From Lachnospiraceae bacterium (GTDB lineage: Bacteria > Bacillota > Clostridia > Lachnospirales > Lachnospiraceae), in assembly GCA_021769135.1 (NCBI GenBank), contig JAETTM010000025.1:1-53489 (forward strand): a stretch of DNA of 53,489 nucleotides, written 5' to 3'. A program made the translations under genes and the position numbers. Positions 10,870 through 40,138 of the stretch are shown piece by piece. The notes under the pieces were generated by a model that had not been told where the DNA came from, ran no database searches, and saw only the letters and a program-made list of their open reading frames with translations. Within the stretch, counting starts at the first letter, position 1, and each line of letters begins with the position of its first letter.

Positions 10870-10980
10870 GATTGAAAATTAAAAATTTTCAATCCCAAGT
10901 TTGTGTCTGCGCGGCATCCACAAACTTGACAAACGCAAATGAATTTGAGCGCAAAAAGCCGCGCAGAAATGGGGTTAAAA
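10870..10980 (+). promoter_or_regulatory. Repeated structured leader element, copy 1 (before the ROK gene)
   Basis: In order it holds a small hairpin GATTGAAAATT/AATTTTCAATC (10870-10894), then the stem CAAGTTTGTG/CACAAACTTG (10896-10905 and 10919-10928) with a 13-nt loop. Next comes a short variable hairpin (10932-10950), then GCCGCGCAGA (10958-10967), an exact complement of the loop bases TCTGCGCGGC (10906-10915). AAATGGGGTTAAAA then leads into the ATG at 10981. The same layout recurs before three other genes. Confidence 0.8.
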
Positions 10981-11943
10981 ATGGAATCATATATCGGTAT
11001 CGACTATGGCGGCACGAAACTTTTGATCGGGGAAGTGGATGGGGAAGGAAGGCTTCTGTCCAGCATGCGTTTTGAGACGGGAAAGAGAAACCAGGGAGAA
11101 ATTGCCGGACACCTGATGGAATGCCTGAAAGCCTATAAAGAAAAAACTTCCTTTGAAGGCCGGGTGCTGGGAGCCGGGGTAGGGATTATAGGAATCAGCG
11201 ATTACAGGGAAGGAATCTGGCGTTCCATGAACCACGAACCTGGGGAAGACATTCCGTTAGCTTCCATGGTCTCGGAAGTTTTAGGCGTTCCGGCGGCCGT
11301 AGATAATGATGTAAGGAGCGCGACGGCGGCGGAACTTTTGTGGGGATGCGGCAAATACAGCAGGGATTTTATCTATCTGAGCGTGGGAACCGGGCTGGCG
11401 GCAGGCATGGTGGTTGACGGCAGGATCATAAGAGGGGCCAACCAAAATGCAGGGGAAATCGGCCATACCACGGTGCGGGGCAGCGGGGATAAAATTTGCC
11501 TGTGCGGAAGGCATGGGTGCGCGGAACTGTCCGCTTCCGGCTCGGGCATTTCCGGAAATGTGAAAGATTGGATGGACGGATATTCCACGGAGCTGGTTTT
11601 GGAAAAAGAAGATAAGCCCGTGGATGCAAGGGAAGTGTTCCTCCTGGCGAGAAAAGGGGATGCTTTATGCAAAAAGGCGGCCGATACGGCGGCAGCGGCG
11701 CTTGCGGAAGTAATCGGGAACCTGGTGCGCACTACCGACCCGGATACGGCGGTGCTTGGCGGCGGCATTATGCAGGACGAATGGTTTTTCCAACAGGTAA
11801 AAGAAAGGCTCCACCCAGTTACGATACGGGGGGTAAAAAACGGCATACGGCTTTCGGAACTGAAGCCGGGGCAGGCAGGAGTGATAGGGGCGGCTGCGGT
11901 AGGGAAGCTGCACCGGGAAAGCATGGGGAATTCGCAAAGATGA
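10981..11943 (+). CDS. ROK-family sugar kinase
   Basis: A 320-residue cytoplasmic kinase. The N-terminal phosphate-binding motif GIDYGGTKLLIGE is at residues 5-17, DNDVRSAT is mid-protein, and the ROK zinc motif CLCGRHGC is near residues 172-180. ROK kinases phosphorylate glucose, N-acetylglucosamine, N-acetylmannosamine, fructose or related sugars. The following NagB-like gene suggests an amino sugar, but the substrate cannot be read from sequence. I chose the ATG at 10981 over an upstream in-frame start. The repeated leader element places the start codon 14 nt after its GCAG block, as in the other copies. It is the first gene of the LacI-controlled operon. Confidence 0.85.
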   Translation: MESYIGIDYGGTKLLIGEVDGEGRLLSSMRFETGKRNQGEIAGHLMECLKAYKEKTSFEGRVLGAGVGIIGISDYREGIWRSMNHEPGEDIPLASMVSEVLGVPAAVDNDVRSATAAELLWGCGKYSRDFIYLSVGTGLAAGMVVDGRIIRGANQNAGEIGHTTVRGSGDKICLCGRHGCAELSASGSGISGNVKDWMDGYSTELVLEKEDKPVDAREVFLLARKGDALCKKAADTAAAALAEVIGNLVRTTDPDTAVLGGGIMQDEWFFQQVKERLHPVTIRGVKNGIRLSELKPGQAGVIGAAAVGKLHRESMGNSQR

Positions 11944-11997
11944 GCAATTTTAACAACGCACAAAGGCTTGGCAAAGCTGAGCGGAAATGGGGAAAGA

Positions 11998-12723
11998 ATG
12001 AAAATAACAGTAATGGAAAATGAAAGAAAATTTGACGAAGCTGCGGCATGGAGAATCATAGGGCAGATGCTGCAAAAACCAAACTCTGTCATCGGGTTTT
12101 CCACAGGGCAGACGACGGGGAATATGCATGCCATCGTCAGCGAGATTTACAGGCTGCATCCCTTTGATACGTCGGAAGTGACGGTTTTCAATGTGGATGA
12201 ACTGGCAGGGCTTCCAAGAAGCTATGAAGGGAGCTGCTATGCCATGATTAAACGGCAGATATGTATTCCTCTGGAAATCCCGGAGGAGCGCTTTATCATG
12301 CCCAGGACGATGGACATCGATTACGGGAAAGAGTGCGCCTGGTTTGAAGAAGAGATAAAGAAAAGAGGGGGAGCGGATCTGCAGATGCTTGGCATCGGGT
12401 GGAACGGGCATATCGGCATCAATCAGCCGGGAACGCCTTTCGGCAGCGATACCCAGCTGTGCCCCATGGACGAACGGTTTGAAGCGAAGGTGAGGAGCGA
12501 AGTGGACGTGCCCGAGTCCTGCGAACTGGGAGGCCTGACTTTGGGGATTAAGACCATTATGCATACGAGGAAAATCGTATTGATTGCAAAAGGAAAACAA
12601 AAGGCGGAGATTATCAAAAAGGCGGTACAGGGGCCGGTGACGGAAGATATCCCGGCCTCGGTCCTTCAGCTTCATCCTAACTGCGAAGTGCTGCTGGACG
12701 CGGATGCGGCATCGCTGCTCTGA
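11998..12723 (+). CDS. nagB: Glucosamine-6-phosphate deaminase-like protein
   Basis: A 241-residue member of the NagB/6-phosphogluconolactonase family. GFSTGQTTG (33-41) binds phosphate, and Asp67 in FNVDEL corresponds to the E. coli general base Asp72. GIGWNGHIGINQPG at 132-145 holds the catalytic His138. Family members convert GlcN-6-P to fructose-6-P and ammonia. At the place of E. coli Glu148, which supports the catalytic histidine during ring opening, this protein has Gln143, and Asp141 is Asn136. The Asn is common in relatives; the Gln is not what I expect, so substrate or activity may differ. GGGGAAAG lies just upstream of the ATG at 11998. An upstream in-frame start at 11968 is less likely. 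Confidence 0.82.
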   Translation: MKITVMENERKFDEAAAWRIIGQMLQKPNSVIGFSTGQTTGNMHAIVSEIYRLHPFDTSEVTVFNVDELAGLPRSYEGSCYAMIKRQICIPLEIPEERFIMPRTMDIDYGKECAWFEEEIKKRGGADLQMLGIGWNGHIGINQPGTPFGSDTQLCPMDERFEAKVRSEVDVPESCELGGLTLGIKTIMHTRKIVLIAKGKQKAEIIKKAVQGPVTEDIPASVLQLHPNCEVLLDADAASLL

Positions 12724-12748
12724 TTGGGGAAGGGTTTGGGTGAATGGG

Positions 12749-15130
12749 ATGAGAAAAGAGTTCAGGGAAGAATTGGTCAAAAGCGGCTGGATACACCGTC
12801 CTCTTCCGGTAAAATGGGAAGACAGCATGGATGCGGAAAGAAAGGGCAGGAAGGTGGCCGCCAGAAGAACGGTGTGGCCGGGGGAGGCCGGAAGGGATTT
12901 TATATGCCCGGAACAGGGGGAGTGCCGGGCTCTTTCCCGCGTGCGCTATGCGAACGGCATCCCAAAAGAAGAGAAATACCTGGAAATGGAAGGGGAATTA
13001 AGGAAGGATTACTGGCCCGAAGGGATGCCTCAGGATGGGGACTGCGCCTATTACGGAAACCTTAGGGCGGTGCTTTGCCTGGAGGGAGAGGACTGGTCGG
13101 GCTACAACCGGCTCCGCTTCCAGGTGCGCCCCGCCTGCAGAGGGCTTCATACGGTCAGTCTGTCCGCATGGGTAAAAAACGAAGGGGCCGAAAAGGTGCC
13201 GGATGCTTTTGGCAGGACGGGCCAGCATATGATGAATCTGGAAAACGACGTATGGAACGACTGTATATGGGAGTTTTCTTCCATGGCAAGGGACTGTATA
13301 TCCCAGTTGGAATTCAGGTATCGGATGAGCGGCAGCGATACGGGGTTTGGCGAAAAGGCTGTTTTTGCAATCAGGAATATTGTTTTGGAAAAGACGGAAG
13401 AAGAGAAGTGCCAGGGCTGGGAGCCGGAAAAGGGGGCTATTTGCCATGATTTTTGCGGATATTTCCCGAAAGAGCCAAAAACGGCGGTTACGGACAGGAC
13501 GGAAGGAAGCTTTTGCGTGGTGGAGGCGGAGACAGGAAAGGCGGTGATGGAGGGGGAAATCAAGACGGCGGAGTTCTCGGGAACCGCTTTCGGAGTCATG
13601 GATTTTTCACCGCTGGAAAAGGAAGGGGGATACCGGCTTAGGATAAATAATCAGGAGACCGGGGAGTTTCAGATTGGAAAAGACTGGGCGGAGGAAATGA
13701 TTTGGAAGGGGATAAATTTCCTGTTCTGCCAAAGGTGCGGGCATCCTGTTCCCGGAAAGCATGGGCGCTGCCATACGGATTGTTATGGGGTGCATGAAGG
13801 GGAGCGGGTATCCTATGGCGGGGGATGGCACGATGCCGGGGATATGTCCCAGCAGACGGTGCAGACCGCTGAAATTACCGAAGCTTTGTTCCGGATAGCA
13901 AGGAGCCATAAAGATAATACGGCATTGTATGAAAGGTGTATGGAAGAGGCATGCTGGGGCCTGTCTTTCCTACTGGGAACGAGGTTTGGAGACGGTTACC
14001 GGGCCACCAGCCTGGGGCTGATACGGTGGACCGATTTGAAGGAGGGGAATCATGACGATGCGTCCAATGTCCGGGTTTTCAACCATGGAATAGACAATTT
14101 CATTTGCGCGTGCGCGGAAGCCGTGGCGGCCGATGCGTTGTGGGAATATGATAGGGAAAGCGGATGGGCGGCCCTGGAAGCTGCAAAGGAAGACTATGGG
14201 TTCGGGATGGAAAGGTTTTTGGAATATGGGTTTGAAATGCCCATTATGTGGGAGCATACCTATGGTTCTTCCTCTTCCCTGTGCTATGCCGTCATAAGCA
14301 AATGCGCAGGCCTGCTGTATGAAGCGACGAAAGAAGAGAAGTACAGGGAGGATTTGTGCCGATGGACCAGGAAGCTTCTGGAATGCCAGGAGACGGAAGG
14401 GCAGTTGGGAGGATTTTTTTACCGGGATGAAACAAAGGAACATATCGTGCATTTTAACCATCAGGCCAGGGAAGGGTATTTTGCTGATAGCCTGATTGGG
14501 GCATGCCGCCTGTGCGGGGAGGAAGAAGGGCGCAGCGCCTTTTTGCGGGGGCTGGAACGGTACGGAGACTATTTTGACGTCTTGATAGGGCATGCCTCCC
14601 CTTACGGGATGATGCCTGCGGGGTTATATAGCAAAAGAGAGGCGGAGCAGGAAGAAGTTTTTGGACGTATGCACTTGCTGTCTGATTACGGGCAATGTAA
14701 GGGAGACTATCTGGAACAGGTGGAAAAGGGGAGAAGGATGGGGGAAGACTTGTATCTGCGGCAATTTCCCGTCTGGTTCTCCTTCAGGGGCAACACCGGC
14801 GTACAGCTGTCCATGACCCAGGCGGCCCTGGGGATTGGGGAATATTTGGAACGGCCTTCCCTGGTCTGGGCGGCTGCGGAGCAGATTCACTGGCTGAACG
14901 GGAAAAACCCTTTTGGGCAGTCGCTGATGACGGGCAATGGGAAGCGATATGACTTTTTTTACGCTGTATTTCCGGGAACATGCGTAGGGCAGATTCCGGT
15001 GGGGGTTCAAACTAAAAAAAATGAAGATTTTCCGTACTGGACGGCTGGAAACCAAGCCACACATAGGGAAGTATGGACAACATGCACTATAAAAATGATG
15101 GATATTTGCGCCGAATTGTTGAAATATTAG
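12749..15130 (+). CDS. GH9-family glycosidase with N-terminal Ig-like domain
   Basis: A 793-residue protein without a signal peptide. The first 300 or so residues are beta-rich and contain an Ig-like CelD_N module (about 240-315). The GH9 alpha-toroid follows. The GH9 motif GGGWHDAGD with its catalytic aspartates is near residue 360. The late motif LNGKNPFGQSLMTGNG and the general-acid Glu in HREVWTT are near 773. GH9 is mostly endoglucanases but also includes exo-beta-glucosaminidases and cello-oligosaccharide enzymes. A cytoplasmic location next to ROK and NagB genes fits an oligosaccharide-processing exo-enzyme, possibly a glucosaminidase. The ATG at 12749 is preferred over upstream codons that overlap nagB. 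Confidence 0.8.
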   Translation: MRKEFREELVKSGWIHRPLPVKWEDSMDAERKGRKVAARRTVWPGEAGRDFICPEQGECRALSRVRYANGIPKEEKYLEMEGELRKDYWPEGMPQDGDCAYYGNLRAVLCLEGEDWSGYNRLRFQVRPACRGLHTVSLSAWVKNEGAEKVPDAFGRTGQHMMNLENDVWNDCIWEFSSMARDCISQLEFRYRMSGSDTGFGEKAVFAIRNIVLEKTEEEKCQGWEPEKGAICHDFCGYFPKEPKTAVTDRTEGSFCVVEAETGKAVMEGEIKTAEFSGTAFGVMDFSPLEKEGGYRLRINNQETGEFQIGKDWAEEMIWKGINFLFCQRCGHPVPGKHGRCHTDCYGVHEGERVSYGGGWHDAGDMSQQTVQTAEITEALFRIARSHKDNTALYERCMEEACWGLSFLLGTRFGDGYRATSLGLIRWTDLKEGNHDDASNVRVFNHGIDNFICACAEAVAADALWEYDRESGWAALEAAKEDYGFGMERFLEYGFEMPIMWEHTYGSSSSLCYAVISKCAGLLYEATKEEKYREDLCRWTRKLLECQETEGQLGGFFYRDETKEHIVHFNHQAREGYFADSLIGACRLCGEEEGRSAFLRGLERYGDYFDVLIGHASPYGMMPAGLYSKREAEQEEVFGRMHLLSDYGQCKGDYLEQVEKGRRMGEDLYLRQFPVWFSFRGNTGVQLSMTQAALGIGEYLERPSLVWAAAEQIHWLNGKNPFGQSLMTGNGKRYDFFYAVFPGTCVGQIPVGVQTKKNEDFPYWTAGNQATHREVWTTCTIKMMDICAELLKY

Positions 15131-15235
15131 AGTAAAATAACGAAAAAGAAGTGCGTAGATAGAAAGAAAAGATAAAAAGTGTGGAACTATTTTACCGGTT
15201 CAAAATTTTTTTTGGGATTATTTTAATAAAAGGGG

Positions 15236-15264
15236 TTGCAATCATACAAAAAGTATGATAATAT
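15236..15264 (+). promoter_or_regulatory. Promoter and dyad upstream of the ABC binding-protein gene
   Basis: TTGCAA at 15236-15241, a 17-nt spacer and TAATAT at 15259-15264. The spacer holds a CATAC-AAAAA-GTATG dyad (15243-15257) that could be an operator. This suggests the transporter can be transcribed separately from the upstream kinase genes. Confidence 0.5.
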
Positions 15265-15325
15265 TGCAAATACAAGAAAGAAATACAGATTAAAACTGAC
15301 AAAAAGTAAGACAAGGAGGAGAAAG

Positions 15326-16705
15326 ATGAAAAGAAAGTTAGTTGCAGGACTTTTGGCAGTAGTTTTAACTTTAGGCACATTGACAGGATGCGGCAGCTCC
15401 GGGAACGCAGGCGGAGAGACAGCTCCGGCAGCCGCTGATGAAAGCACAGATGCCGGAACGGAAGAAGCTGCGGACACCGCAGGGGATACTGCAGAGGCGG
15501 AGAGCAGCTCCGGGGAAAGGGAAAAAGTAGTATTTTGGTATTCCCATACAAATGAAGAAGGGAAAGCCTTCGAAGAGACGATTAAAGCTTTCAACGAGAG
15601 CCAGGACAAATACGAAGTGGAAGGCTTAAGCGTTATGGATAAGCAGAAGATTATCGTGGCATTGGCAGGGAGCGAGGCCCCTGATGTGGTGGAAGTGTCC
15701 AACCAGGATATCATCTCTTATGCGAATTCGGGCCTGGTAGAATCGATCAGCGATATGGCGGCGGCTGACGGATACGACTTAGGCAGCATTTATTCGGCTC
15801 AGGCGCTGGATTCCAATACTCTTGAAGATGTGGTATACGGAGTTCCGTTTGCATCCCAGATTATCCAGATGTTCTATAACAAAGATATTTTGGAAGAAAT
15901 CGGATATTCGGAACCTCCTAAGACCATGGAAGAGCTGTACGAAATGGCGGAAAAAGCTACGGAAGTGGATGCGGACGGAAACATTACCCGTCTCGGATAT
16001 CCTCTGTTCCCGCTGGCAAGCGCAAGGCAGGAACTGATTTATGCATTCGGCGGAAGATGGTGGTCGGAAGACGGACAGACATTGACTCCGGACGATCCGC
16101 TGATTCTGGACAGCCTGAATATGAATATGAAATTCCGCGAGAAATACGGCGTGGAAAAGGTACAGGCCTTTGTGGCTTCCGCAAATACCAACCGTTACAC
16201 GGAAAACGATATGTTCTTTGCAGGGAAACAGCTGTTCCGTTTCGATGGACCGTGGCTGGCTACTATGGCAGCTGACTGGGGCCCGGATGTAAACTACGGC
16301 GTAGCGCTGATACCGGGTACGGAAGCAAATCCTGATTTGCTCGGCTCCAGCCGTTATGAGACAAACAGCCTTGGCATTCCGGTAGTGGCAAACAATAAAG
16401 AAGGCGCATGGGAATTCGCAAAATTCTTTACCAATTCCGAGGCGACAAAGGAAACTCTGATGGCAATCGGAAACCTTCCTACTACTTTGGACCTTTATGA
16501 CGATCCGGACATTCTGGGCATGCCTAACTTTGAAGTGTTCGTAGAAGCCCTGAAGACGGAAAACGGCGTTCAGTATCCGAAGATTGCTGATTTCGCTAAA
16601 TATACATCTTTGATAGAAGAATATCTGGATTATGTATACAACGGCATTAAGACCCCGGAGGAAGCAATGGCCGAGCTGGCTGAGCAGGCAAAGATGCTTC
16701 AGTAA
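15326..16705 (+). CDS. ABC sugar transporter substrate-binding lipoprotein
   Basis: A 459-residue family-1 extracellular solute-binding protein. A signal peptide of 21 residues ends in the lipobox LTGC (Cys22). A low-complexity Ala/Glu/Ser/Thr linker follows to about residue 65, typical of surface-tethered binding proteins in Clostridia. The body begins EKVVFWYSHTNEEGKAFEE, the usual opening of carbohydrate binders of the UgpB/MalE type. I chose the ATG at 15326 because AAGGAGGAG precedes it and it gives a proper signal peptide. The two permease genes follow after an internal terminator. No ATPase gene is present, so a shared MsmK-like ATPase is likely supplied from elsewhere. Confidence 0.92.
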   Translation: MKRKLVAGLLAVVLTLGTLTGCGSSGNAGGETAPAAADESTDAGTEEAADTAGDTAEAESSSGEREKVVFWYSHTNEEGKAFEETIKAFNESQDKYEVEGLSVMDKQKIIVALAGSEAPDVVEVSNQDIISYANSGLVESISDMAAADGYDLGSIYSAQALDSNTLEDVVYGVPFASQIIQMFYNKDILEEIGYSEPPKTMEELYEMAEKATEVDADGNITRLGYPLFPLASARQELIYAFGGRWWSEDGQTLTPDDPLILDSLNMNMKFREKYGVEKVQAFVASANTNRYTENDMFFAGKQLFRFDGPWLATMAADWGPDVNYGVALIPGTEANPDLLGSSRYETNSLGIPVVANNKEGAWEFAKFFTNSEATKETLMAIGNLPTTLDLYDDPDILGMPNFEVFVEALKTENGVQYPKIADFAKYTSLIEEYLDYVYNGIKTPEEAMAELAEQAKMLQ

Positions 16706-16790
16706 ACATAATAAGAAGCGAGCGTTAAGAAAGATTTAAGTGCAGAAATCTTAGTATAAATACTTACGGTAATTGGTAACTTGTTATGCG

Positions 16791-16839
16791 GAGTATATAT
16801 TATGAGGTTACTGAATGCCTCATAATATATACTCTTTTT
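16791..16839 (+). terminator. Strong intrinsic terminator between binding protein and permeases
   Basis: The 17-bp perfect arms at 16791-16807 and 16818-16834 surround a 10-nt loop, followed by TTTTT. It lies between co-directional genes of one transporter, so it probably acts as a partial terminator that lowers permease mRNA relative to the binding protein. Confidence 0.88.
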
Positions 16840-16857
16840 AACGTCAGGAGGTTTTAG

Positions 16858-17802
16858 ATGAATAAAAAAGTAGGGCAAAAAAAGAAGCAATATAGCCGCC
16901 GGGATAACATAAACGGTTTTCTGTTTGCGCTGCCCTGGATTATCGGTTTCACATGCTTTAGCATTATTCCGTTGCTCACATCCTTCTATTACAGCTTTAC
17001 GGAATTTAACCCGGTAAAAGATCCTGTGTGGGTAGGGCTTGATAATTTCAAGTATATTTTTAAGGATCCGCTTGTTTTTAAGAGCTTAAGGAATACTTTA
17101 TTTATGGCTTTTGTATCCACGCCTGTAAACCTTTTTATCGCGTTGCTGTTGGCATCGTTGCTTAACAGGAGCTTTAAGGGAAGGGGCGTGGCCAGGACTA
17201 TCTTCTTTATGCCGTCCATCATTCCTATGATTGCCGCAACCATGGTATGGATTTGGATGTTCGACCCCACTTATGGTTATATCAACAGGGTATTGGGGAT
17301 GTTCGGCATTACCGGCCCGTCATGGCTGATGAATCCGGCTTATACGAAATGGGCGCTGGTGCTGATGGGAACATGGTGTACGGGAACTACTATGCTGATT
17401 TGCCTGGCCGCCTTGCAGGATGTGCCCAAAAGCTATTACGAGGCGGCGGAAATCGACGGGGCAGGCACGGTGCAGAGGTTTTTCAAGATTACCCTTCCCT
17501 GTGTGGCGCCGGTGCTCGTTTATCAGGCGATTCTCAATATTATCAACGCTTTCCAGTATTTCACCCAGGTATACGTTATTATCAATGCCAGCAGCGGCGC
17601 AGGATCCAGCAATGCGGGGGGCGGTCCGGCAAACTCCATTTTGATGTATCCCCTGTACTTGTTTAATACCGCTTTCTCCTTTATGAAGATGGGAAGGGCT
17701 TCCGCAATGGCATGGATTCTGTTTGTTGTGATTAGCGTTATGACCTTCATTATGATTAAAGTTACGAGGAAGGTTTCGGAAAATGGAGCAGGAGATGAGT
17801 AG
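16858..17802 (+). CDS. ABC sugar transporter permease (UgpA/MalF-like)
   Basis: A 314-residue integral membrane protein with six predicted hydrophobic segments, beginning around residues 20-45 (FLFALPWIIGFTCFSIIPLL). The ATPase-contact loop YYEAAEIDGAGTVQRFFKITLP is near residue 195. It would form the inner-membrane channel with the next gene and accept sugar from the upstream lipoprotein. AGGAGG lies 9 nt before the ATG. It is separated from the binding-protein gene by a strong terminator, so its expression depends on read-through. Confidence 0.92.
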   Translation: MNKKVGQKKKQYSRRDNINGFLFALPWIIGFTCFSIIPLLTSFYYSFTEFNPVKDPVWVGLDNFKYIFKDPLVFKSLRNTLFMAFVSTPVNLFIALLLASLLNRSFKGRGVARTIFFMPSIIPMIAATMVWIWMFDPTYGYINRVLGMFGITGPSWLMNPAYTKWALVLMGTWCTGTTMLICLAALQDVPKSYYEAAEIDGAGTVQRFFKITLPCVAPVLVYQAILNIINAFQYFTQVYVIINASSGAGSSNAGGGPANSILMYPLYLFNTAFSFMKMGRASAMAWILFVVISVMTFIMIKVTRKVSENGAGDE

Positions 17803-17890
17803 CAGCTGCGAAATGCAATGCAATACATGGGAGCATGTATGGGAGCATGCATGAAATATGGCAGATTATAGAAAGGGCATGGTATTTAGT

Positions 17891-18736: not shown

Positions 18737-18841
18737 CGCGCGGCGGAAAATGCCTTGAAAACTATTTGAGGTTTGGCGCATTGCGGAAATTTGCGCTATG
18801 CGCTAAGGTCTCCGGACTTTGAAAGGAGCACGGTTAAAAGC

Positions 18842-30679: not shown

Positions 30680-30745
30680 AACTTGACTATGCGAAAAGCT
30701 TCGGCAAAGCCGAACCACAAAAGCCGCGCAGAAAAGGGGGTAAAA
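30680..30745 (+). promoter_or_regulatory. Repeated leader element, copy 3 (3' half only)
   Basis: It keeps AACTTGAC (30680-30687), a local hairpin TTCGGC-AAA-GCCGAA (30700-30714) and the 3' module GCCGCGCAGA (30723-30732), with AAAAGGGGGTAAAA before the ATG at 30746. The 10-bp stem and its loop are missing. Distance from GCAG to the ATG is 14 nt, as in the complete copies. Confidence 0.65.
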
Positions 30746-31210
30746 ATGGTACACTTAGTTTATTGCGATAATGTGGGGAAAAAGGGAGAAAAGGTATTGG
30801 ATAAAATTTTGGCCGGCGAAAAAACGATGGTAGTTCGGGGGGCTGCGGGGCGGAAGATTCCCCACAGCAGAGTTTTTGAAAACGAAGAATTATATTTTAT
30901 GGAAAAGGGAAGCGCTGAAATTACCGCACGGGCAAAAGTGAAGCATGTGGATAATTATGTGAAATTATCGGATGAGGAAATTTCCAAAGTGCTGGAGGAC
31001 AACCAGGGGAAATTAAGCCTGACGGACAAGCAAAAAATCCGGTGGCACAAAAAATGCCTTTGCCTGGTGGAATTCTGCGACGTGGAACGGATAGCCCCTC
31101 TTGCATTTGAACATCAGGGAAATATGGACGATTGGCTTATTCTGGAAAAAATCGAAGATGTGGTTGTGGGAACAAGCATTCCTTATAATTATGAAAAGTC
31201 AAAATTTTAA
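30746..31210 (+). CDS. ASCH/PUA-like domain protein
   Basis: A 154-residue soluble protein. The N-terminal half (GEKTMVVRGAAGRKIPHSRVFENEELYFMEKGSAEITARAKV) has the ASCH/EVE/PUA-like layout, in which a small beta-barrel binds RNA or modified nucleotides. No catalytic function can be assigned. I chose the ATG at 30746 over an in-frame upstream start at 30683, because the leader element fixes the start 14 nt after its GCAG block. It follows the AraC/GyrI-like regulator. A strong terminator lies 30 nt downstream. Confidence 0.7.
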   Translation: MVHLVYCDNVGKKGEKVLDKILAGEKTMVVRGAAGRKIPHSRVFENEELYFMEKGSAEITARAKVKHVDNYVKLSDEEISKVLEDNQGKLSLTDKQKIRWHKKCLCLVEFCDVERIAPLAFEHQGNMDDWLILEKIEDVVVGTSIPYNYEKSKF

Positions 31211-31519: not shown

Positions 31520-31575
31520 TAAGGTGTTCGAACACAAAACCAATAAACCAATTTTATTTAGAGGAGGATTCCCAA

Positions 31576-32586: not shown

Positions 32587-33308
32587 ATTTGAAGCAAGCT
32601 ATTTACCCCGAAATAGTCCATACGCTTTAAGGTACGGCAGTATTCGATAACCTGATGGTCTTCCGTGGATGTGATTACATTGAAATAAAAAAGTGGGCTG
32701 CCTTTTTCAAGACCCAAATGCTGCGAAGTATCGGAATCGGCATAGGTCATACCAAGGGAATAGCTGGTTCGCTGGGGATGGATATGGTATTGGTCGGACA
32801 ATACTTCAAATAAAGATGGATATTCCCTGTCAAAGTCGAATTGTTCCAGTTTGGGACAGAGTGATTCGGCAATGTGTGTGGTTTCCAGCATTGCCGGATT
32901 GGAATCTATAAAACGAAGCCTCTTTAATATATAGATGGAAGAACCCGCAGGTATGTTCAGCTTTTGGCAGACATAGGGGGTTCCGGCAGTACGGTACATA
33001 TTTATGACCCTACTGGAACTTCGATAACCATTTGTGGTACAGTAAGAATGAAACGAAAAATTGACTCCTGTATTGGTCCGTAACTTTGGGGGTGCAACAT
33101 ATGTTCCGCTGCCTTTTAAGCTATAGAGCACATGCTCGTTTTCCAGCCTTTTCACGGCTTCGCGGAAGGTGATGCGGTTTACGCCTAATATTTCGGAGAA
33201 TTTACGTTCGGAAGGCAGGCGGTCATGGGGAGATAGTTGATTCTTGATGATATAATTTTCAATTTCTTCTGCGGCATAGTCGGCAGTAAGGTGCAGGAAA
33301 GAATTCAT
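32583..33308 (-). CDS. GntR-family (HutC/UTRA) regulator 1
   Basis: A 241-residue protein. The GntR winged helix (residues 10-72: LPSERKFSEILGVNRITFREAVKRLENEHVL) is followed by a UTRA effector domain (about 90-235). UTRA regulators sense phosphosugars or related metabolites. I chose the ATG at 33308, with AAGGAG 6 nt upstream. It is the second gene of a two-regulator operon, 10 nt after regulator 2, and ends tail-to-tail with the deglycase gene with a 4-nt overlap. Its likely targets are the deglycase and PTS promoters. Confidence 0.88.
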   Translation of the reverse strand: MNSFLHLTADYAAEEIENYIIKNQLSPHDRLPSERKFSEILGVNRITFREAVKRLENEHVLYSLKGSGTYVAPPKLRTNTGVNFSFHSYCTTNGYRSSSRVINMYRTAGTPYVCQKLNIPAGSSIYILKRLRFIDSNPAMLETTHIAESLCPKLEQFDFDREYPSLFEVLSDQYHIHPQRTSYSLGMTYADSDTSQHLGLEKGSPLFYFNVITSTEDHQVIEYCRTLKRMDYFGVNSLLQI

Positions 33309-33318
33309 ATATGCTCCT

Positions 33319-34017
33319 TTAGGATATTTTAAATACATATTTTTCGGCAACGGAATAAGACAGCGTATATTCGATGGCGCGTTCATTTATATCATAAATT
33401 GTGGATTTGCGCATGAAAGCGCTTGTGCCTTCCGGAATATCGAGGAGGGTAGATTGGGGCTGGCTTACCAATACCAAATCCAATGTTTGATGGCTGTAAC
33501 TTAATGTAATCTCGTTGTCTTTCAGGCAGCGGTAGAGGGAAGCCTGTGAAAAATCATAATCAGCAATGTTTGGCACATAGCTTAAGGGGAGATAGGTGTA
33601 CTCAATCGTGTAAGGGGTATCGTCCCCAAGACGTTGGCGAAACAGCTGATAAACCGGGGCATGTTCGTCGATATGGAATATTTTCCCGTACTTATAGCCC
33701 GCTTCTCGTATTCCGGTGTAAAAAACGTTGGTGGAAGGATGCAGCCCATTGTCTTCCAGATATTTCCTGGTGGATGTAATTGCGTTGGACGCATGAAGCC
33801 TGGGGAGCGAAACAAAAGTTCCTTTCCCTTGTCTCCGGTAAAGGAGCCCTTCGTTGACGAGTATGTCCGTTGCCTTCCGGACGGTCATGCGGCTGACCAG
33901 ATAAAGGTCTGCCAGCGTGCGTTCAGGCGGAATTGGCTGACCGTAGGCATATACTCCGTTTTCGATACTGCTGCGGATAATATCATAAATATATTTTGCA
34001 GAATGATTCTGATTCAT
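33319..34017 (-). CDS. GntR-family (HutC/UTRA) regulator 2
   Basis: A 232-residue paralogue of the next gene. Residues 1-70 hold the winged helix (IPPERTLADLYLVSRMTVRKATDILVNEGLL), followed by a UTRA domain ending YTLSYSVAEKYVF. AGGAGG lies 8 nt before the ATG at 34017. It is divergent from the PTS IIA gene and is the first gene of the regulator pair. Two tandem but diverged UTRA regulators suggest that two effectors, or a heteromeric repressor, control the locus. Confidence 0.88.
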   Translation of the reverse strand: MNQNHSAKYIYDIIRSSIENGVYAYGQPIPPERTLADLYLVSRMTVRKATDILVNEGLLYRRQGKGTFVSLPRLHASNAITSTRKYLEDNGLHPSTNVFYTGIREAGYKYGKIFHIDEHAPVYQLFRQRLGDDTPYTIEYTYLPLSYVPNIADYDFSQASLYRCLKDNEITLSYSHQTLDLVLVSQPQSTLLDIPEGTSAFMRKSTIYDINERAIEYTLSYSVAEKYVFKIS

Positions 34018-34087
34018 AATGCGCCTCCTGAAATATAGTTTCATTATATTAGCTGTAAAACATTTATTCAAGGAAGAAAGGAGGAAA

Positions 34088-34183
34088 GATTGAAAATTGA
34101 TAATTTTCAATCCGGAGTTTGTGTCCGCATGGCATCCATAAACTCCATGGCACACGAAAAGCCGTGCAGAAATGAGGGTAAAT
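34088..34183 (+). promoter_or_regulatory. Repeated leader element, copy 2 (before PTS IIA)
   Basis: Hairpin GATTGAAAATT/AATTTTCAATC (34088-34112), then stem GGAGTTTGTG/CATAAACTCC (34114-34123 and 34137-34146) with a 13-nt loop. Loop bases TCCGCATGGC (34124-34133) pair with GCCGTGCAGA (34161-34170). AAATGAGGGTAAAT leads to the ATG. Compared with copy 1, several paired positions changed on both sides. Confidence 0.8.
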
Positions 34184-34609
34184 ATGGTTAAAATGTTATT
34201 GGCATCCCATGGGAACCTTGCTTCCGGAATGCTTTCCTCCCTGGAATTGATTTTGGGGAAGCAGGAACATACGGGAATCCTCTGTGCCTATGTGGATGGG
34301 GAAGATGATGTGGCTCCCAGAGTAAAAGATTTCATGGAAAAAATGAGGCCGGAAGAAAGCTGGATTGTCTGCACGGATTTGTTTGGGGGAAGCATCAATA
34401 ATGAATTCATGAAGTATCTGGACAGGCCCAATATGCGGCTGGTCAGCGGCATGAGCCTTCCGATGGTCATTGCGGCGGCATCGGCGATGGATTCTGCCAA
34501 GAGCGCTTTGGAGGTAGAACAGGAAATAAAAGCAGCTGTTTCGGATATGGTGCATTTTTGCAGCGATATTGAATTGAACAGCCAACAGGGAGAAGACGAG
34601 GAATTTTAG
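34184..34609 (+). CDS. PTS mannose-family IIA component
   Basis: A 141-residue EIIA-Man domain protein. The phosphorylated histidine is expected at His9 in LLASHGNLASGM. DLFGGSINN and the later MVIAAA segment match the family. It accepts phosphate from HPr and passes it to IIB in the cytoplasm. It heads a IIA-IIB-IIC-IID operon that probably imports and 6-phosphorylates an Amadori compound, given the flanking SIS deglycases. The ATG at 34184 sits exactly 14 nt after the GCAG block of the leader element. Confidence 0.92.
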   Translation: MVKMLLASHGNLASGMLSSLELILGKQEHTGILCAYVDGEDDVAPRVKDFMEKMRPEESWIVCTDLFGGSINNEFMKYLDRPNMRLVSGMSLPMVIAAASAMDSAKSALEVEQEIKAAVSDMVHFCSDIELNSQQGEDEEF

Positions 34610-34622
34610 GAAGGAGAAGGTA

Positions 34623-35093
34623 ATGATTGTTAATGTAAGAGTAGACCACCGTTTACTGCATGGGCAAGTTGCAATGGCATGGAATCAAGTGCTTGGAAGC
34701 GACTGTATTCTAATCGCAAATGACAGCGTACCTGGGGATGAAGTAAGGAAAGCAGGGATTAAGCTTGCAAAACCCCAAAATACCAAGCTGGTTATCAAAA
34801 ATTTGGAAGATTCCGTAAAAGCGCTTAAATTGGGCGTTACGGATAAGTACCATCTGTTTATTGTTGTGGAATCCGTATCCGACGTATATTTATTGGCAAA
34901 GGAGACGGGAATGATTAAAAAAATCACATTGGGCGGTGTAAAGTCAAGGGAGAACACAGTTCAAGTTTCAAAGGCAGTTTTTGTTACAGAAGAAGAAAAG
35001 GCTATGCTGAAAGAATTGATTGCATCCGGGATAGAAGTGGAAATCAGGCAAGTGCCAAGCGATACAAAAATCATGGCCAAAGATTTGATTTAG
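34623..35093 (+). CDS. PTS mannose-family IIB component
   Basis: A 156-residue EIIB-Man protein. The phosphorylated histidine is expected at His13 in VDHRLLHGQVA, the family's hallmark N-terminus. ITLGGVKSRENT and AVFVTEEEKAML are also typical. It transfers phosphate to the incoming sugar at the membrane complex. GGAAGGAGAAGG lies before the ATG, 14 nt after the IIA gene. Confidence 0.93.
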   Translation: MIVNVRVDHRLLHGQVAMAWNQVLGSDCILIANDSVPGDEVRKAGIKLAKPQNTKLVIKNLEDSVKALKLGVTDKYHLFIVVESVSDVYLLAKETGMIKKITLGGVKSRENTVQVSKAVFVTEEEKAMLKELIASGIEVEIRQVPSDTKIMAKDLI

Positions 35094-35099
35094 GGCACT

Positions 35100-35117
35100 T
35101 GCGGAACTGAATAGGAG
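35100..35117 (+). repeat. Short leader motif TGCGGAACTGAATAGGAG before IIC
   Basis: This motif contains the IIC ribosome binding site. It recurs almost identically (TGCGGAACTGGAATAGGAG) directly upstream of kduD at 51142 and once more at 51114. Confidence 0.55.
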
Positions 35118-35126
35118 GGAAAAAAT

Positions 35127-35897
35127 ATGTTACAGGCTGTTTTGCTGGGATTGGTGGCAATGATTGGAAATGCCACATTTTTGACAGGCACCAGTCTTCT
35201 GGACCGTCCGATTGTCATGTGTACGCTGACAGGATTGGTTATGGGAGATATAAAGTCAGGGATAATTATTGGGGCAATGATGGAACTCGCTTTTATAGGG
35301 GCGTTTTCCGTAGGCGGTGCGCTTCCGCCGGAAATGATTTCGGGAGGTATTTTAGGTGCTGCGCTTACTTTGGCATCGGGAAATTCGCCGGAAGTGGCTT
35401 TGACAATTGGCATTCCCATTGCATCGTTAGCATTGGTATTAAAAAATGCATGCAAGATTTTCATTTTGCCTTATTTTGTGCATAGGGCGGACCAATACGC
35501 AAAGGAAGGAAATGGGAAAGGTGTGTCCAGGATGCATATGTTAGGAGGGCTGCTTTATTTTAATCTGCCCCTTGGCTTGTTCGTGGGTACAGCCTACTAC
35601 CTTGGAAACTCGGTGATGTCAACGGTGCTGAACGCAATACCTGCTTTTGTTCAGAATGGCCTTACCATTGCGACGGGGTTAATGCCTGCTCTTGGTTTTG
35701 CAATATTGGCAAGCATGATTGTGAATAAGAAAAATGTAGTTTTTTTATTCCTGGGATTCCTGTTGGCAGTTTATTTGAATATACCGGTTACGGGAATTGC
35801 CCTGTTAGGGGTGGTGACCGCATTGATTATTGTAGGGATTCAACCAACACAAATGTCCACAGCATTGGCGGGAGGTGACGAAGATGATGACTTCTGA
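35127..35897 (+). CDS. PTS mannose-family IIC component
   Basis: A 256-residue membrane permease of the EIIC-Man type. It has multiple hydrophobic segments and typical stretches such as RPIVMCTLTGLVMGDIKSGIIIGA and GGALPPEMISGG. With IID it forms the translocation channel. AGGAGGG lies 10 nt before the ATG. Its 3' end overlaps the IID start by 14 nt. Confidence 0.93.
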   Translation: MLQAVLLGLVAMIGNATFLTGTSLLDRPIVMCTLTGLVMGDIKSGIIIGAMMELAFIGAFSVGGALPPEMISGGILGAALTLASGNSPEVALTIGIPIASLALVLKNACKIFILPYFVHRADQYAKEGNGKGVSRMHMLGGLLYFNLPLGLFVGTAYYLGNSVMSTVLNAIPAFVQNGLTIATGLMPALGFAILASMIVNKKNVVFLFLGFLLAVYLNIPVTGIALLGVVTALIIVGIQPTQMSTALAGGDEDDDF

Positions 35898-36711
35898 GAC
35901 AAAAGTTTTAGGAAAAAAAGATTTAATGAAAGTATTTTGGCGCTCCTTTACAATGGAGTGGACCTGGAATTATGAAAGGCAGGCAAATCTTGGATATGGT
36001 TTTGCCATGGTGCCTATTCTGGAAAAACTTTATAAGGACAAGCCGGAAGAGAAAGCGGAAGCTTTGCAGAGGCATTTGGAGTTTTTCAATACAACGCCTC
36101 ATGTATCCACTTTGATATTGGGAATAAGCAGTGCAATGGAAGAGCAAAATTCTACCCGGGAGGATTTCGATACATCATCCATCAATAATGTCAAGGTAGG
36201 GCTTATGGGGCCTTTGGCAGGAATTGGCGATTCCCTGCTGTGGGGAACGCTTAGGATTATTGCTACCGGTATAGGAACTTCTTTGGCATTACAGGGAAAT
36301 GTGCTCGGGCCAATTTTATTTTTTTTGATTTTCAACATCCCTCATATTATCCTTCGCTATATTTGTATGATGGGAGGATATAAGCTGGGTGCCGGTTTCC
36401 TGACAAAAATGCAGCAGGGCGGCCTCATGGATAAGGTTACATACGGGGCGGCGATTGTGGGGCTTATGTCCATCGGTGCGATGATAGCGACTATGGTTAC
36501 GGTGAACATACCGTTAAGCTATGGGAGCGGGGATAATGCAATTGTCATCGGGGATATTTTAAACGGGATTATTCCGGGGATTATCCCCCTGCTGTTTACC
36601 GGCTTTATTTACTGGCTTGTTACGAAGAAGAAAATGAGGACTACAGCGGCGTTGCTCCTGATTCTTGTAATTGGGATTGTCGGGAGCATGACAGGAATTT
36701 TGGGAGTATAG
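35884..36711 (+). CDS. PTS mannose-family IID component
   Basis: A 275-residue EIID-Man protein. The N-terminal cytoplasmic part contains SFTMEWTWNYERQANLGYGFAM; NTTPHVSTLILGIS and LMGPLAGIGDSLLWGT follow, all hallmarks of IID. I chose the ATG at 35884 with GGAGGTG 6 nt upstream, not the GTG at 35875 that overlaps that site. It completes the four-protein transporter and precedes the second SIS gene by 15 nt. Confidence 0.93.
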   Translation: MMTSETKVLGKKDLMKVFWRSFTMEWTWNYERQANLGYGFAMVPILEKLYKDKPEEKAEALQRHLEFFNTTPHVSTLILGISSAMEEQNSTREDFDTSSINNVKVGLMGPLAGIGDSLLWGTLRIIATGIGTSLALQGNVLGPILFFLIFNIPHIILRYICMMGGYKLGAGFLTKMQQGGLMDKVTYGAAIVGLMSIGAMIATMVTVNIPLSYGSGDNAIVIGDILNGIIPGIIPLLFTGFIYWLVTKKKMRTTAALLLILVIGIVGSMTGILGV

Positions 36712-36726
36712 AAGGGCTGGTTTGGT

Positions 36727-37839
36727 ATGGATAAAAAAACAATGCTGGATTATGTGTCAGAGACTGCCGCAATGATGCGGGAAAATATAGGGAACAGTAG
36801 GAAATTGACGGCAGAATTGACCAGTGAATATTTAGATGGCGATTATAAGAATATCTGGATAGTCGCTTCGGGCTCATCCCATAACGGGGCAGCATGCGCA
36901 AAGCTATTTATTCAACATTGCCTGGGATGCCAGGTAAAACTGATTACTCCCTTTCAGTTTGTTCATGCTGAGCATGATGTACCGGACTGTGATATGGTAA
37001 TAGCCATATCGCAGTCTGGATACAGTAAAAATACCATGGAAGCCTTGCGGGTCATCCGTTCCATAGGGCGTAAGGCAATCGCTTTGACTGGGGATTTGAA
37101 AAGCGATATAAAGAAGGATGCGGATTTGCTGATAGATTTTGGCGTAGGGGTGGAAACGGTGGGGTATGTGACGAAGGGTGTAAATGCGCTGGCTTTGTTT
37201 TTAATGCTCTTTTCATTGGAAACGGCAAGGGAAAAACATTTTCTGGATAAGCAGGGATATGAAAATCTCCGGAAGGAATTGGAGAAAGTTCCTGCAATCC
37301 ATCAGCGGGTCAGGGAAGCCTTTTTACCCTTTTTTCAAAAAAATATAAAAGCCTTTACTTCCATGCAGATTGCATATGTATGCGCATGCGGTGCGAATAT
37401 TGGCACGGCTATGGAAGGAGCGCTGAAAATTGGGGAAACGGTCCAGATACCGGGAATCTGCTATGAATTGGAAGAATACATACACGGACCTAACCTGCAG
37501 CTTACCCCTAACTATACAGTTTTTTTCATTGACGGGGGGTGTGCGTCGGAACGGGTTTATGAAATTTTTGACTGTACGAAGATTGTTACGGATAGAGCGA
37601 TGCTTATTACGAACAAGAAAAAATATGAAGGGGAAGGCGTTTTTTGCGTTCCATTTGAGCTGCAGGAAGATTTGACGCCGCTCTGTTTCCTTCCGTTTTT
37701 CCAGATGGTCTCCTATGAGGTGACGCAGCGGCTTCACCGGTGGGAAAAGCACCCACTCCAGCTTGTAATGAAAGAAATAGTGGCGGCAAAGAGTGTAAAC
37801 TATGATAAAAGCCCGCTGCGAATTGATATGCCCGGCTGA
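36727..37839 (+). CDS. SIS-domain phosphosugar enzyme, GfrE-like deglycase candidate
   Basis: A 370-residue protein with tandem SIS domains like the GlmS isomerase half. IVASGSSHNGAACAKLF is near 40 and AISQSGYSKNTMEAL near 97, and the catalytic-region PGICYELEEYIHGPNLQL near 250. It lacks the glutamine amidotransferase domain, so it is not GlmS. In the Salmonella gfr operon two SIS enzymes, GfrE and GfrF, cleave 6-phospho-glucoselysine and 6-phospho-fructoselysine. By position this would be the GfrE counterpart, although the substrate is inferred only from context. Its ribosome binding site (GAAGGG) is weak. Confidence 0.75.
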   Translation: MDKKTMLDYVSETAAMMRENIGNSRKLTAELTSEYLDGDYKNIWIVASGSSHNGAACAKLFIQHCLGCQVKLITPFQFVHAEHDVPDCDMVIAISQSGYSKNTMEALRVIRSIGRKAIALTGDLKSDIKKDADLLIDFGVGVETVGYVTKGVNALALFLMLFSLETAREKHFLDKQGYENLRKELEKVPAIHQRVREAFLPFFQKNIKAFTSMQIAYVCACGANIGTAMEGALKIGETVQIPGICYELEEYIHGPNLQLTPNYTVFFIDGGCASERVYEIFDCTKIVTDRAMLITNKKKYEGEGVFCVPFELQEDLTPLCFLPFFQMVSYEVTQRLHRWEKHPLQLVMKEIVAAKSVNYDKSPLRIDMPG

Positions 37840-37855
37840 AAGGAGTATGGTTGAC

Positions 37856-38725
37856 GTGAATCGTAAAGTGGAAGAATGCAGGAAATTATTTTTGGCAGTG
37901 CTGGGAACTTTATTCTTTGCAGGCGGCATGAATTTATTTATTGTTTCGGCGAACTTATACAGCGGTGGGTTTCTGGGAATCGGGCAGTTAGTGCGAACCT
38001 TGCTGGTGGATTTATTGGGGTTTCCGGTGAAAGGGATTGATATTGCGGGTATTGTATTTTATATGATTAATGTTCCTATATTTTTCATAGCATGGAGGGA
38101 ATTGGGGAAAAAGTTTTTTGCGGTAACGATTATCTGCGTTACCATGCAGACAATTTTTTTGACTTTTATTCCCACAGGTGTCCAGATTCTCGGGGATGAG
38201 CCATTGGCTTCGGCATTAATCGGAGGGATAATCTGCGGATATGGCGTGGGGCTTACCCTAAGGGAGGGCGGCTCTGGCGGCGGGCAGGATGTGCTGGGAC
38301 TGTACATGATGAAAAAAAAGAATTCTTTCAGCGTGGGGAAGCTGGCCCTTTTAATTAATGTCATCGTATATATGGGTTGCGCTTTGCTATATGATTTGAG
38401 AATAGTAATATATTCTCTTGTGTATGTTGCGGTTTCTTCTTATGTTACAGACCGGGTGCATCTACAGAACGTGAATGTGGAGGTTATGGTTATAACGAAA
38501 GCGAAAGAGGAAATTGAAGAGATTATTAAAAAATATAACCGTTCTGCCACTGTTATGAAGGGCGAAGGCAGCTATTCCCATGATAGCGTGGATGTAATAT
38601 ATTCCGCACTGTCAAAACAGGAAGCCAGGTCGCTGGAGCATGAGATTTCGGAAAAAAAGCTGGAGGCGTTTATGGTTTTTAAGGACGTGAACCATATTTA
38701 TGGGAAGTATGATAAGCATTTATAA
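37856..38725 (+). CDS. YitT family membrane protein (DUF161-DUF2179)
   Basis: A 289-residue protein. About five hydrophobic segments of the DUF161 type (GGMNLFIVSANLYSGGFLGIGQL; REGGSGGGQDVLG) are followed by a cytoplasmic DUF2179 domain (about 215-285: VMVITKAKEEIEEIIKKYNR). The role of this family is not established; membrane transport has been suggested. I chose the GTG at 37856: AGGAG lies 10 nt upstream, while the ATG at 37847 is only 1 nt from it. The gene follows the SIS gene closely and converges on a MATE gene. Confidence 0.87.
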   Translation: MNRKVEECRKLFLAVLGTLFFAGGMNLFIVSANLYSGGFLGIGQLVRTLLVDLLGFPVKGIDIAGIVFYMINVPIFFIAWRELGKKFFAVTIICVTMQTIFLTFIPTGVQILGDEPLASALIGGIICGYGVGLTLREGGSGGGQDVLGLYMMKKKNSFSVGKLALLINVIVYMGCALLYDLRIVIYSLVYVAVSSYVTDRVHLQNVNVEVMVITKAKEEIEEIIKKYNRSATVMKGEGSYSHDSVDVIYSALSKQEARSLEHEISEKKLEAFMVFKDVNHIYGKYDKHL

Positions 38726-38740
38726 AAGGCTGCGGCGGAA

Positions 38741-40069
38741 TCACCGTACGGATAAAAGGAAGCATGTGGATAAAGATACCCAGAATATAGCCGCTTCCGC
38801 TGCGGGAACCGCCAGCCACATCCCGGCTATTCCCCAGAATTTCGGCAGGATGAGCAAAAATATCAATAGCAATGCAAAAGAGCGGAGAAAAGTAATCATG
38901 CCTGAATAGTGCCCTTTTCCATATGCCGTAAGGCGGATTGCCGCGAAAATATTAAAGCCTGAAAATAAGAAACTGATACCGTATAAACGCATTCCGGACA
39001 ACGATAGTTTAAAAACGATGCTGGTTTTTTCGGCAAAAAAGGTGATGGCAAATGGGGCACAAAAATAAGTTAACCCATAAATAACCAGAGGCGCTATGGC
39101 AAAGAAGCGGCAAGAATATTGTTCCAGCTTATGGCAAATTTCTTTTTTGCCGTTGCCCAGCGCATAACTGAGCAGCGGCGAGATTCCCATGGAATATCCG
39201 AAATAGACGCCGATAAACAGAAATTGGAGGTACATAATGATAGAAACTGCCGCAATGCCGTTTTCCCCGGAAAGGGTTAAGGCTGTCCTGTTGAAAACAA
39301 TAGTGGTAACCGCAACGGCCAATTGGTCAATGCATTCCGAAAGCCCGTTGACCATACAGCGCAGTCCCAGCGAAAGGCGCAAATGATTTATCGTAAAACG
39401 AAGATTCTTACGGTATACTGCAAAATAGAAGATGCCGATGGCACAGGACAAAGCCAGCCCAAGCACGGTGGCCAGTCCGGCTCCTAATATTCCCATATGG
39501 AAATGTGCGACAAAAATCTGATCCAACAAAATATTCAGAATCCCGCCGGAAAATGCCGTGGCAAAACTCCATTTTGGAGAACCGTCCACCCGTATAAAAT
39601 AAGTGAACAATTCTTTCCCAATTGCTGCGGGAGATGCCAAAAGCCACAGAAAACCATATATTCTGCAATTTTGCATAGTAATAGGAGTAGCCCCCAGGAA
39701 TGTCAAAACCGGCGTAAAATTGCATAAGATAAGGATGGAGAATATGCACCCCATAAAAATAGAACTGACCATGCTGGCTGAAAAGGAATGGCCGGCCTTT
39801 TTTGTGTTCCCGGCTCCAATGTCAATGGCTGCAATGGCGCTTCCGCCCGTTGCAAAAGCTAATGCGATGCCTGTCAGTATATTTACCAGGGGATATACTG
39901 TGTTGATGGCTGCCAGGGCATTCGTACTTACATAACGGGACACATACGCGCCGTCAATTATAGTGTACAGTGTGTTGAACAGCGATGTCAGATAAGTAGG
40001 GATGATAAACTTTAAAACTCTGCGAAACTTGATTTCTTCCATATTTTGAAACATTGTTTTGATTTCCAT
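38741..40069 (-). CDS. MATE family exporter under MerR-type control
   Basis: A 442-residue membrane protein with twelve predicted helices and MATE features (YTIIDGAYVSRYVSTNALAAINTVYPLVN; ATGGSAIAAIDIGAG). It resembles the MepA-like branch of drug exporters. The start is one of two adjacent ATGs; I chose 40069 because it lies 14 nt after the GCAG of the leader element, as in the other copies. The promoter at 40205-40235 has the 19-bp spacer and dyad typical of MerR activation, and the divergent gene encodes a MerR regulator. Confidence 0.9.
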   Translation of the reverse strand: MEIKTMFQNMEEIKFRRVLKFIIPTYLTSLFNTLYTIIDGAYVSRYVSTNALAAINTVYPLVNILTGIALAFATGGSAIAAIDIGAGNTKKAGHSFSASMVSSIFMGCIFSILILCNFTPVLTFLGATPITMQNCRIYGFLWLLASPAAIGKELFTYFIRVDGSPKWSFATAFSGGILNILLDQIFVAHFHMGILGAGLATVLGLALSCAIGIFYFAVYRKNLRFTINHLRLSLGLRCMVNGLSECIDQLAVAVTTIVFNRTALTLSGENGIAAVSIIMYLQFLFIGVYFGYSMGISPLLSYALGNGKKEICHKLEQYSCRFFAIAPLVIYGLTYFCAPFAITFFAEKTSIVFKLSLSGMRLYGISFLFSGFNIFAAIRLTAYGKGHYSGMITFLRSFALLLIFLLILPKFWGIAGMWLAVPAAEAAIFWVSLSTCFLLSVR

Positions 40070-40138
40070 CATTTACCTCATTTCTGCGCGGCCTTTTGCG
40101 CATGTCAAGTTTGTGGATGCCGCGCAGACACAAACTTG
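40070..40138 (-). promoter_or_regulatory. Repeated leader element, copy 4 (before the MATE gene)
   Basis: Read on the minus strand: stem CAAGTTTGTG/CACAAACTTG (plus-strand 40106-40115 and 40129-40138) with a 13-nt loop. Loop bases TCTGCGCGGC pair exactly with GCCGCGCAGA (plus-strand 40083-40092). AAATGAGGTAAATG then leads to the ATG. It lies in the MATE mRNA leader downstream of the MerR-type promoter. Confidence 0.8.

Follow-up and report, generated by a model that had tools for sequence, protein, structure and literature searches.

Why would one short leader stand before four unrelated genes within a single stretch of a bacterial genome? We looked at this question in 53,489 nucleotides from a Lachnospiraceae bacterium (assembly GCA_021769135.1, contig JAETTM010000025.1; hereafter the window, meaning this whole stretch), where a first-pass annotation had described three full copies and one 3' half of a structured leader, each ending at a start codon. 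The window indeed contains three full copies and one 5'-truncated copy at the coordinates claimed. From 5' to 3', a full copy begins with a hairpin, P1, which the earlier description had omitted. A second hairpin, P2, follows (stem 10 bp, loop 13 nt), and after a linker come a block complementary to this loop, a Shine-Dalgarno (SD)-like GRGG, and the start codon. The existence of the element, its structure, and its placement can be read directly from the comparisons below. We interpret it as a dispersing RNA leader that would act at translation initiation and probably answers a shared signal, a reading from sequence in which our confidence is about even.

The fold is best described on copy 1, which lies on the plus strand at 10867-10983, includes the ATG (10981) of a ROK kinase gene, and matches the covariance model with E=3.6e-24. 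Its P1 (10870-10894), supported by sequence and folding, is an optional 5' hairpin. P2 (10896-10928, arms 10896-10905 and 10919-10928), supported by folding and covariation, forms stem S1 and holds in its loop the strand GCGCGGC (10909-10915), whose partner by covariation is GCCGCGC (10958-10964). The copy's own SD-like end, GGGG, follows at 10971-10974. Across the copies, S1 has 10 bp, L1 3 nt (UCN), and S2, the helix between the S1 loop and the 3' block, 7 bp; L2 is about 3 nt, and L3 is A-rich with a median of 13 nt and a minimum of 6 by a simple length measure. Some copies carry an additional hairpin within L3, of unrelated sequences. The 3' end of the leader reads AGAAAU, then the SD-like GRGG, usually a 6-nt spacer, and the start codon, with 6 nt between the end of S2 and the SD. 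The loop-to-block pairing had been put at ten bases; its seven inner bases form a covarying helix, and we reduced S2 to these since the outer three pairs do not covary.

For the covariation test, pair counts were compared with those of shuffles and of slid controls. In a MAFFT alignment of 45 sequences, which was not structure-fitted, P2 and the loop-block helix had 97.1% paired cells and nine pairs changed on both sides (0/500 shuffles). A second alignment of 109 rows (107 distinct) from many genera was aligned to a covariance model, R1, which models P2 but not the loop-block helix. Here, 93.6% of the cells were paired and 175 showed double changes, against 48 in the shuffles (0/500), and slid controls reached a pairing of 51% at most. 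P2 alone was 95.1% paired. In the seven S2 pairs, 97.3% of the cells were paired and 74 had changed on both sides (shuffles: mean 22.6, maximum 32). One S2 column pair showed all six standard pair types, and among the 35 weakest copies S2 pairing was still 95.3%. Conservation of unpaired bases in the diverged half extends, among others, to the C of UCN, to the run of A in L3, and to the AGAAA before the SD. Within the window, the change of the stem end from CA/TG to GG/CC and of a loop pair from G-C to A-T, noticed before, are present in the sequence, and the claim that covariation supports an RNA structure is borne out on the larger scale. With a conserved structure, compensatory changes, and a position before start codons, the element is a cis-acting structured 5' leader. 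The covariation documents a structure kept through the history of the family, which is not yet selection after each insertion.

A pseudoknot and two mutually exclusive pairings had both been proposed. Judged from sequence and loop lengths, the leader has covarying S1 and S2, a short L1 over S2, and an L3 spanning S1; since a 7-bp helix, a 3-nt L1, and an A-rich L3 fit H-type geometry, we favour an H-type pseudoknot over exclusive pairings; a 10-bp helix would leave no L1, which such a knot requires. Nested folding predicted P1 and P2 in copy 1, P1 but not P2 in the copy starting near 34088 (other pairings were preferred), and in the minus-strand copy P2 without P1; a copy from another genus (L099) folded with P2, the pyrG copy did not, and the truncated copy gave nothing notable. 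Folding z-scores of the tested copies ranged from -2.76 to +0.11, so that stability alone is not the argument for structure.

How tightly is the leader placed? In the window's own genome (G000), an open reading frame (ORF) of at least 50 codons starts within 3 nt of the model end in 80 of 83 copies. The three exceptions are the first copy of a tandem pair (L033) and two copies whose ATG opens an ORF of 29 (L024) or 12 codons (L039). Because SD and ATG columns belong to the model, copies with a start codon are slightly favoured; strong copies (80-120 bits) would still be found without one. A pattern scan over many genomes gave 190 candidates, and 143 passed the filter that the block be followed by AA[TC]G; the 47 dropped include both chance matches and true variants. 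Of the filtered copies, 129/143 have their next ATG 12-14 nt after the block, and 105/143 exactly 13 nt after it. An ORF of at least 50 codons also stood behind the element in 27 of 28 loci from a sample of the family. Just after the knot, we observed a conserved AAATG (window 10969-10983), often in frame, 12 nt before the true ATG. The frame is open from it in 72 of the 190 raw candidates, and automatic annotation may call the start of tagged genes four codons too early.

We then compared, by eye, orthologous sites with and without the element. The second full copy (34085-34186, plus strand, E=4.4e-20), before the PTS EIIA-man gene and including its ATG at 34184, has P2 at 34114-34146 and S2 strands at 34127-34133 and 34161-34167 (sequence and covariation). 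At this gene, the congener G002 has AAGAAAGGAGAAAAAATGG, and the window has AAGAAAGGAGGAAAG, the element, and then GAGGGTAAATATGG; the GGAGG at 34080-34084 is the former SD. A GGAG at 10864-10867 is, from its sequence, probably the former SD left upstream of copy 1. The truncated copy (30680-30745, plus strand, E=2.9e-4; ATG at 30746) keeps an L3 hairpin, the S2 3' strand, and the SD, lacks P2, and is absent from the orthologous sites of G012 and G003. The third full copy lies on the minus strand (40067-40167, E=4.4e-20) before a MATE family gene with its ATG at 40069 and an additional in-frame ATG at 40072; its P1, clear in the other two full copies, is of a second type and imperfect. Empty orthologues were also seen for an AraC-type regulator gene (G001 and G002), an ABC permease gene and an Fe-ADH gene (both in G001), and PPi-PFK (G009). 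The annotation's idea of a mobile or duplicated 5' untranslated cassette is supported by these empty sites.

The junctions of the 78 copies with a P1 gave the same picture. In 55/78, the 14 nt before the element contain an SD-like motif (GGAG or GAGG in 48/78), against 5-12/78 (GGAG or GAGG 3-5/78) in each of five control windows further upstream. The unit starts with AAG before P1 in 67/78, ends in GAGG, GGGG, or GGAG in 73/78, and is followed by an ATG at 6-nt spacing behind this SD-like end in 64/78. In two tandems, L022 and L033, a consensus-like copy has the SD end of another copy directly in front of it (in L022, only the 3' end of that copy) and the start codon behind it. A third candidate, L254, was rejected as a clean tandem; its older degenerate copy lies some 40 nt upstream with no clear junction. 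Six housekeeping genes were compared in 12 to 14 congeners each. The element precedes eno, pfk, and galE in G000, G001, and G002, and metK and pyrG in G000 and G002; a pyrG-like gene of G001 has none, and the G001 metK was outside the comparison. For pncB, the element was found in G000, a consensus-like copy in G023, and an apparent 3' remnant in G002. No element was seen before the six genes in the remaining congeners. Altogether, the sites compared show that at several loci copies entered between an existing SD and the start codon, bringing a new SD, and gain and loss are visible between congeneric species. One pair of orthologous copies (L044 in G001 and L011 in G000) has different L3 hairpins, and L044 is similar to a further copy of G001 (L002), by concerted evolution or re-insertion.

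The element is far more numerous than the four copies described at the outset. Copy 1 had 44 blastn matches in G000 (4.43 Mb, 152 contigs) and many more in congeners. With R1, built from 45 sequences with P2 as its sole helix, G000 gave 118 matches at E<=0.1, of which 83 were catalogued at E<=3.2e-4. Among 16 genomes of the genus, R1 counts at E<=1e-4 were 129 in G002, 100 in G001, 76 in G000, 53 in G009, 50 in G022, 43 in G023, 31 in G012, 9 in G005, 8 in G003, 2 in G004, and none in six. A broader model, R2, from 109 sequences, applied to eight of the 16 at E<=0.01, gave 23 matches in G003, 7 in G004, 2 in G008 (best 1.0e-6), one weak match each in G021, G006, G007, and G011, and none in G010; the background is thus about one weak match per genome, and several congeners have next to none. 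With one genome per genus of the family, matches occurred in 28/299 genomes (R1, E<=1e-6) or 48/299 (R2, E<=1e-5); only 12 candidates per genome were scored, so that copy numbers per genome in this sample are lower bounds. A sample of the class gave 5/391 genomes with matches, four of which belong to the same family as the window. When GTDB genomes were scanned for an exact pattern, at least 107 stretches were found, most titled Lachnospiraceae; the matches listed include strains 28-4, 10-1, 526-35, and IMSAGC_002, as well as Parablautia intestinalis, P. muri, C-53, and metagenome-assembled genomes.

Three further observations were made during these searches. One copy (L008:1464-1555) was found in G019, a genome of the same order but a different family, where it precedes an ORF whose product is 60% identical to that behind a G000 copy (C84:2050), which points to horizontal transfer or parallel gain. 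Another (L114:7802-7870), on an IMG/VR contig, precedes an ORF starting at 7868 that by eye encodes a cation P-type ATPase; the contig is probably host DNA beside a prophage, and we set aside a phage link of the leader as weak. Finally, L123 holds on its minus strand, near 98, another kind of repeat with GTGTCCGCGAAGCGGACAT and ATCTCTGCCATGTTATAGCGC, which is apparently unrelated to the leader.

What do the tagged genes have in common? Pfam matches confirmed the ROK, EIIA-man, and MatE assignments of the window genes; the gene at 30746, labelled ASCH before, had no Pfam match at E<=1e-6. A scan covered 33 of 81 distinct downstream proteins, cut at 330 residues, with best matches reported and several scores under the curated cut-off. 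Products found were DhaK, ROK kinase, a SigF/SigG-family sigma factor, a HAD hydrolase, PTS subunits, Fe-ADH, an ABC permease, an AraC-type regulator, those of metK, pyrG, eno, galE, murI, scpB, thrS, ackA, araA, and upp, PPi-PFK, nicotinate phosphoribosyltransferase, a Rid family protein, HisZ, TatD, a TrhP-like protein, galactosamine-6-phosphate isomerase, malic enzyme, and RNase R. These are unrelated, and many are core functions. In other genera, dnaK-, secG-, pheS-, rnc-, and glycyl-tRNA synthetase-like genes stand behind copies, as judged by eye from the first residues. Upstream of copy 1, before the ROK kinase gene, there is also a perfect palindrome, ATGAAAGCGCTTTCAT, at 10830-10845, which resembles a catabolite-response (cre) site.

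From these results we propose the following scheme. The transcript would carry an optional P1, then the H-type pseudoknot, a new SD-like GRGG, and the start codon, and an element that enters between SD and start would take over the ribosome binding of the tagged gene. With only 6 nt between S2 and the SD, folding of this helix would hinder 30S binding. We infer a switch in which the knot is stabilised or opened by a signal, be it a small molecule, a protein, or a trans RNA, so that the translation of all tagged genes could be set jointly. Spread would occur via a copying machinery for which SD plus A-rich spacer serves as landing site, followed by selection. A bolder version, which we find rather doubtful, is that such a self-spreading RNA switch builds a regulon, with some hundred unrelated and partly essential genes under one post-transcriptional signal, possibly through RNA copies whose loop and block pair in trans.

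Several points weigh against a switch of this kind. The downstream genes share no single pathway. The SD is unpaired in the model, so that any occlusion would be a matter of proximity only, and no trans partner was found. The outer three loop pairs (UCN) lack covariation, being 80.5% paired against 80.9% in shuffles with no double change, and in the 34088 copy the third of these positions is a C-A mismatch. Same-locus compensation between species is also fragile. In 17 elements from seven loci, 14 double changes were counted against 5.7 simulated, and 11 losses against 24.6 expected, which is significant; without the G002 elements of pfk and galE and without the sigma-factor pair, it is not (1 double change against 0.14, reached in 692/5000; 8 losses against 9.25). 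These elements look like younger replacement copies, and because the significance depends on them we do not use this test as main evidence. Moreover, before eno of G001 (L380, upstream 300 nt), a young full copy, flanked by GAGGTAAAG before it and by GGGGTAAAAG, lies upstream of an older element, at its abandoned SD. A copy can thus land where no start codon follows directly, which is easier to reconcile with a preferred landing site than with functional selection. What is targeted would accordingly be an SD-like motif with its A-rich spacer rather than the start codon, and for the same reason we weighted the dispersing leader down and its main rival up.

This main rival is a purely parasitic small interspersed repeat of the BOX, REP, or MITE (miniature inverted-repeat transposable element) kind, which survives only where it supplies an SD of its own and folds in the service of its mobility, not for regulation. 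We regard it as possible, if on the unlikely side. Bursts in single lineages, from 129 copies to none within one genus, near-identical and 5'-truncated copies, the unrelated genes, the tandems L022 and L033, and the young copy at the abandoned SD in G001 are what such an element would leave behind. Against it, there was no general signal of target site duplication in 75 copies (self 4.60, cross 4.53; 627/2000 permutations reach the observed similarity), although a perfect 10-bp repeat stands at both ends of L022 and a near repeat at the eno of G001; the duplication expected of MITEs of DDE transposons was thus not seen. Terminal inverted repeats were not noticed in the copies inspected, where no systematic search was made. 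An HUH/REP-type mobility with GGAG as the target had its appeal, given the GGAG of the SD and the GAGG at the element's end, and was rejected because Y1 transposase counts are out of step with copy counts: none in G001 (100 copies), G012 (31), G005 (9), and G003 (8), and nine in G010 (0 copies), in draft genomes in which a partner could have been lost. Reverse transcriptase had no clear link with copy number across these drafts either (RVT_1: 0 in G009, with 53 copies and 83% complete, and in G012, with 31; 1 in G000, 6 in G022, 3 in G001, and 2 in G002). In addition, a crude census of GGAG in the window counted 403 coding, 23 SD, and 29 other intergenic sites. As 29 of the 52 noncoding sites are not SDs, a target sequence combined with purging from genes does not predict near-total placement at starts; a seeker of GGAG should also occupy such sites, and yet 80/83 copies are at starts. 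A parasite would also not be expected to keep S2 paired at 95% in its 35 weakest copies.

Other functions of the knot account for part of the data. As an mRNA stabiliser, it would block a 5'-3' exonuclease and lengthen half-life, and selection would favour copies before many genes. The unrelated genes, many in core metabolism, and a compact knot directly before the SD with an optional P1 agree with this; stabilisation by itself does not explain the tight spacing to the ATG, and we think this explanation improbable. Still less probable is the multiplication of one of the known metabolite-sensing riboswitches, such as preQ1 or SAM-II: preQ1 riboswitches share the general plan of a small pseudoknot beside the SD (PMC11625349), but Rfam 15 cmscan of the whole window gave no match at gathering score, and the targets are not of one pathway. 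Permissive matches were weak and unrelated, with TD-2, mir-10, and BTnc005 for copy 1 (E up to 5) and caiA, mir-1684, and drum in five loci (E up to 1), none of them a riboswitch family. A leader peptide or attenuator, in which a short ORF running across the element would be translated from the old SD, could make use of the TTG or GTG that P1 types ATTG and AGTG place a few bases behind the old SD. L3 lengths, however, take all values modulo 3 (79, 42, and 22 of 143), no reading frame is kept across them, and we rejected this idea as hardly credible.

The dispersing leader can be placed among known systems. The view that it belongs to no named family held up in the Rfam comparison, and among the papers listed in our searches of the open-access literature none describes such an element. 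Its nearest relatives in kind are BOX repeats (PMC3049150) and preQ1 pseudoknots (PMC11625349). The pneumococcal BOX, RUP, and SPRITE are small interspersed repeats, read as parasitic, and the termini of BOX and RUP are inverted repeats like those of resident insertion sequences (PMC3049150). Like them, the leader is high-copy, short, and strongly base-paired, expanded in one-lineage bursts, and they too are transcribed in the 5' regions of some operons (PMC3049150). Unlike them, it is nearly fixed before start codons (BOX positions relative to starts were outside the comparison), shows no target duplication signal, and has a strongly covarying fold. With preQ1-I (PMC11625349), it shares a small translational H-type knot next to the SD and an A-rich 3' strand; it differs in its lack of an Rfam match, in copy numbers of about 80-130 in three of the congeneric genomes, in the unrelated genes behind it, and in its dispersing habit.

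What is new is the combination of a fold absent from Rfam, a very high copy number before unrelated genes, and a mode of insertion linked to the stretch from SD to start codon; the separate parts, a knot leader and a dispersed repeat, are of kinds already known. Ribosomal proteins S15 and S4 bind pseudoknot leaders and regulate their own operons. Here too, a knot placed where the ribosome binds could trap 30S or block it, with the difference that the leader fronts many unrelated genes.

The usual view is that a regulon expands as point mutations move sequences towards protein-binding sites. In the genomes studied here, a structured RNA has apparently been dropped ready-made into the translation starts of many genes, with the reading frame untouched. 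How RNA regulation can spread within a genome becomes testable in this way; the case also hints at a process of insertion able to recognise the interval between SD and start codon, and it offers a natural part that fits before any gene. In the Lachnospiraceae, a gut-dwelling family, this leader also fronts core enzymes such as those encoded by eno, metK, pyrG, and ackA.

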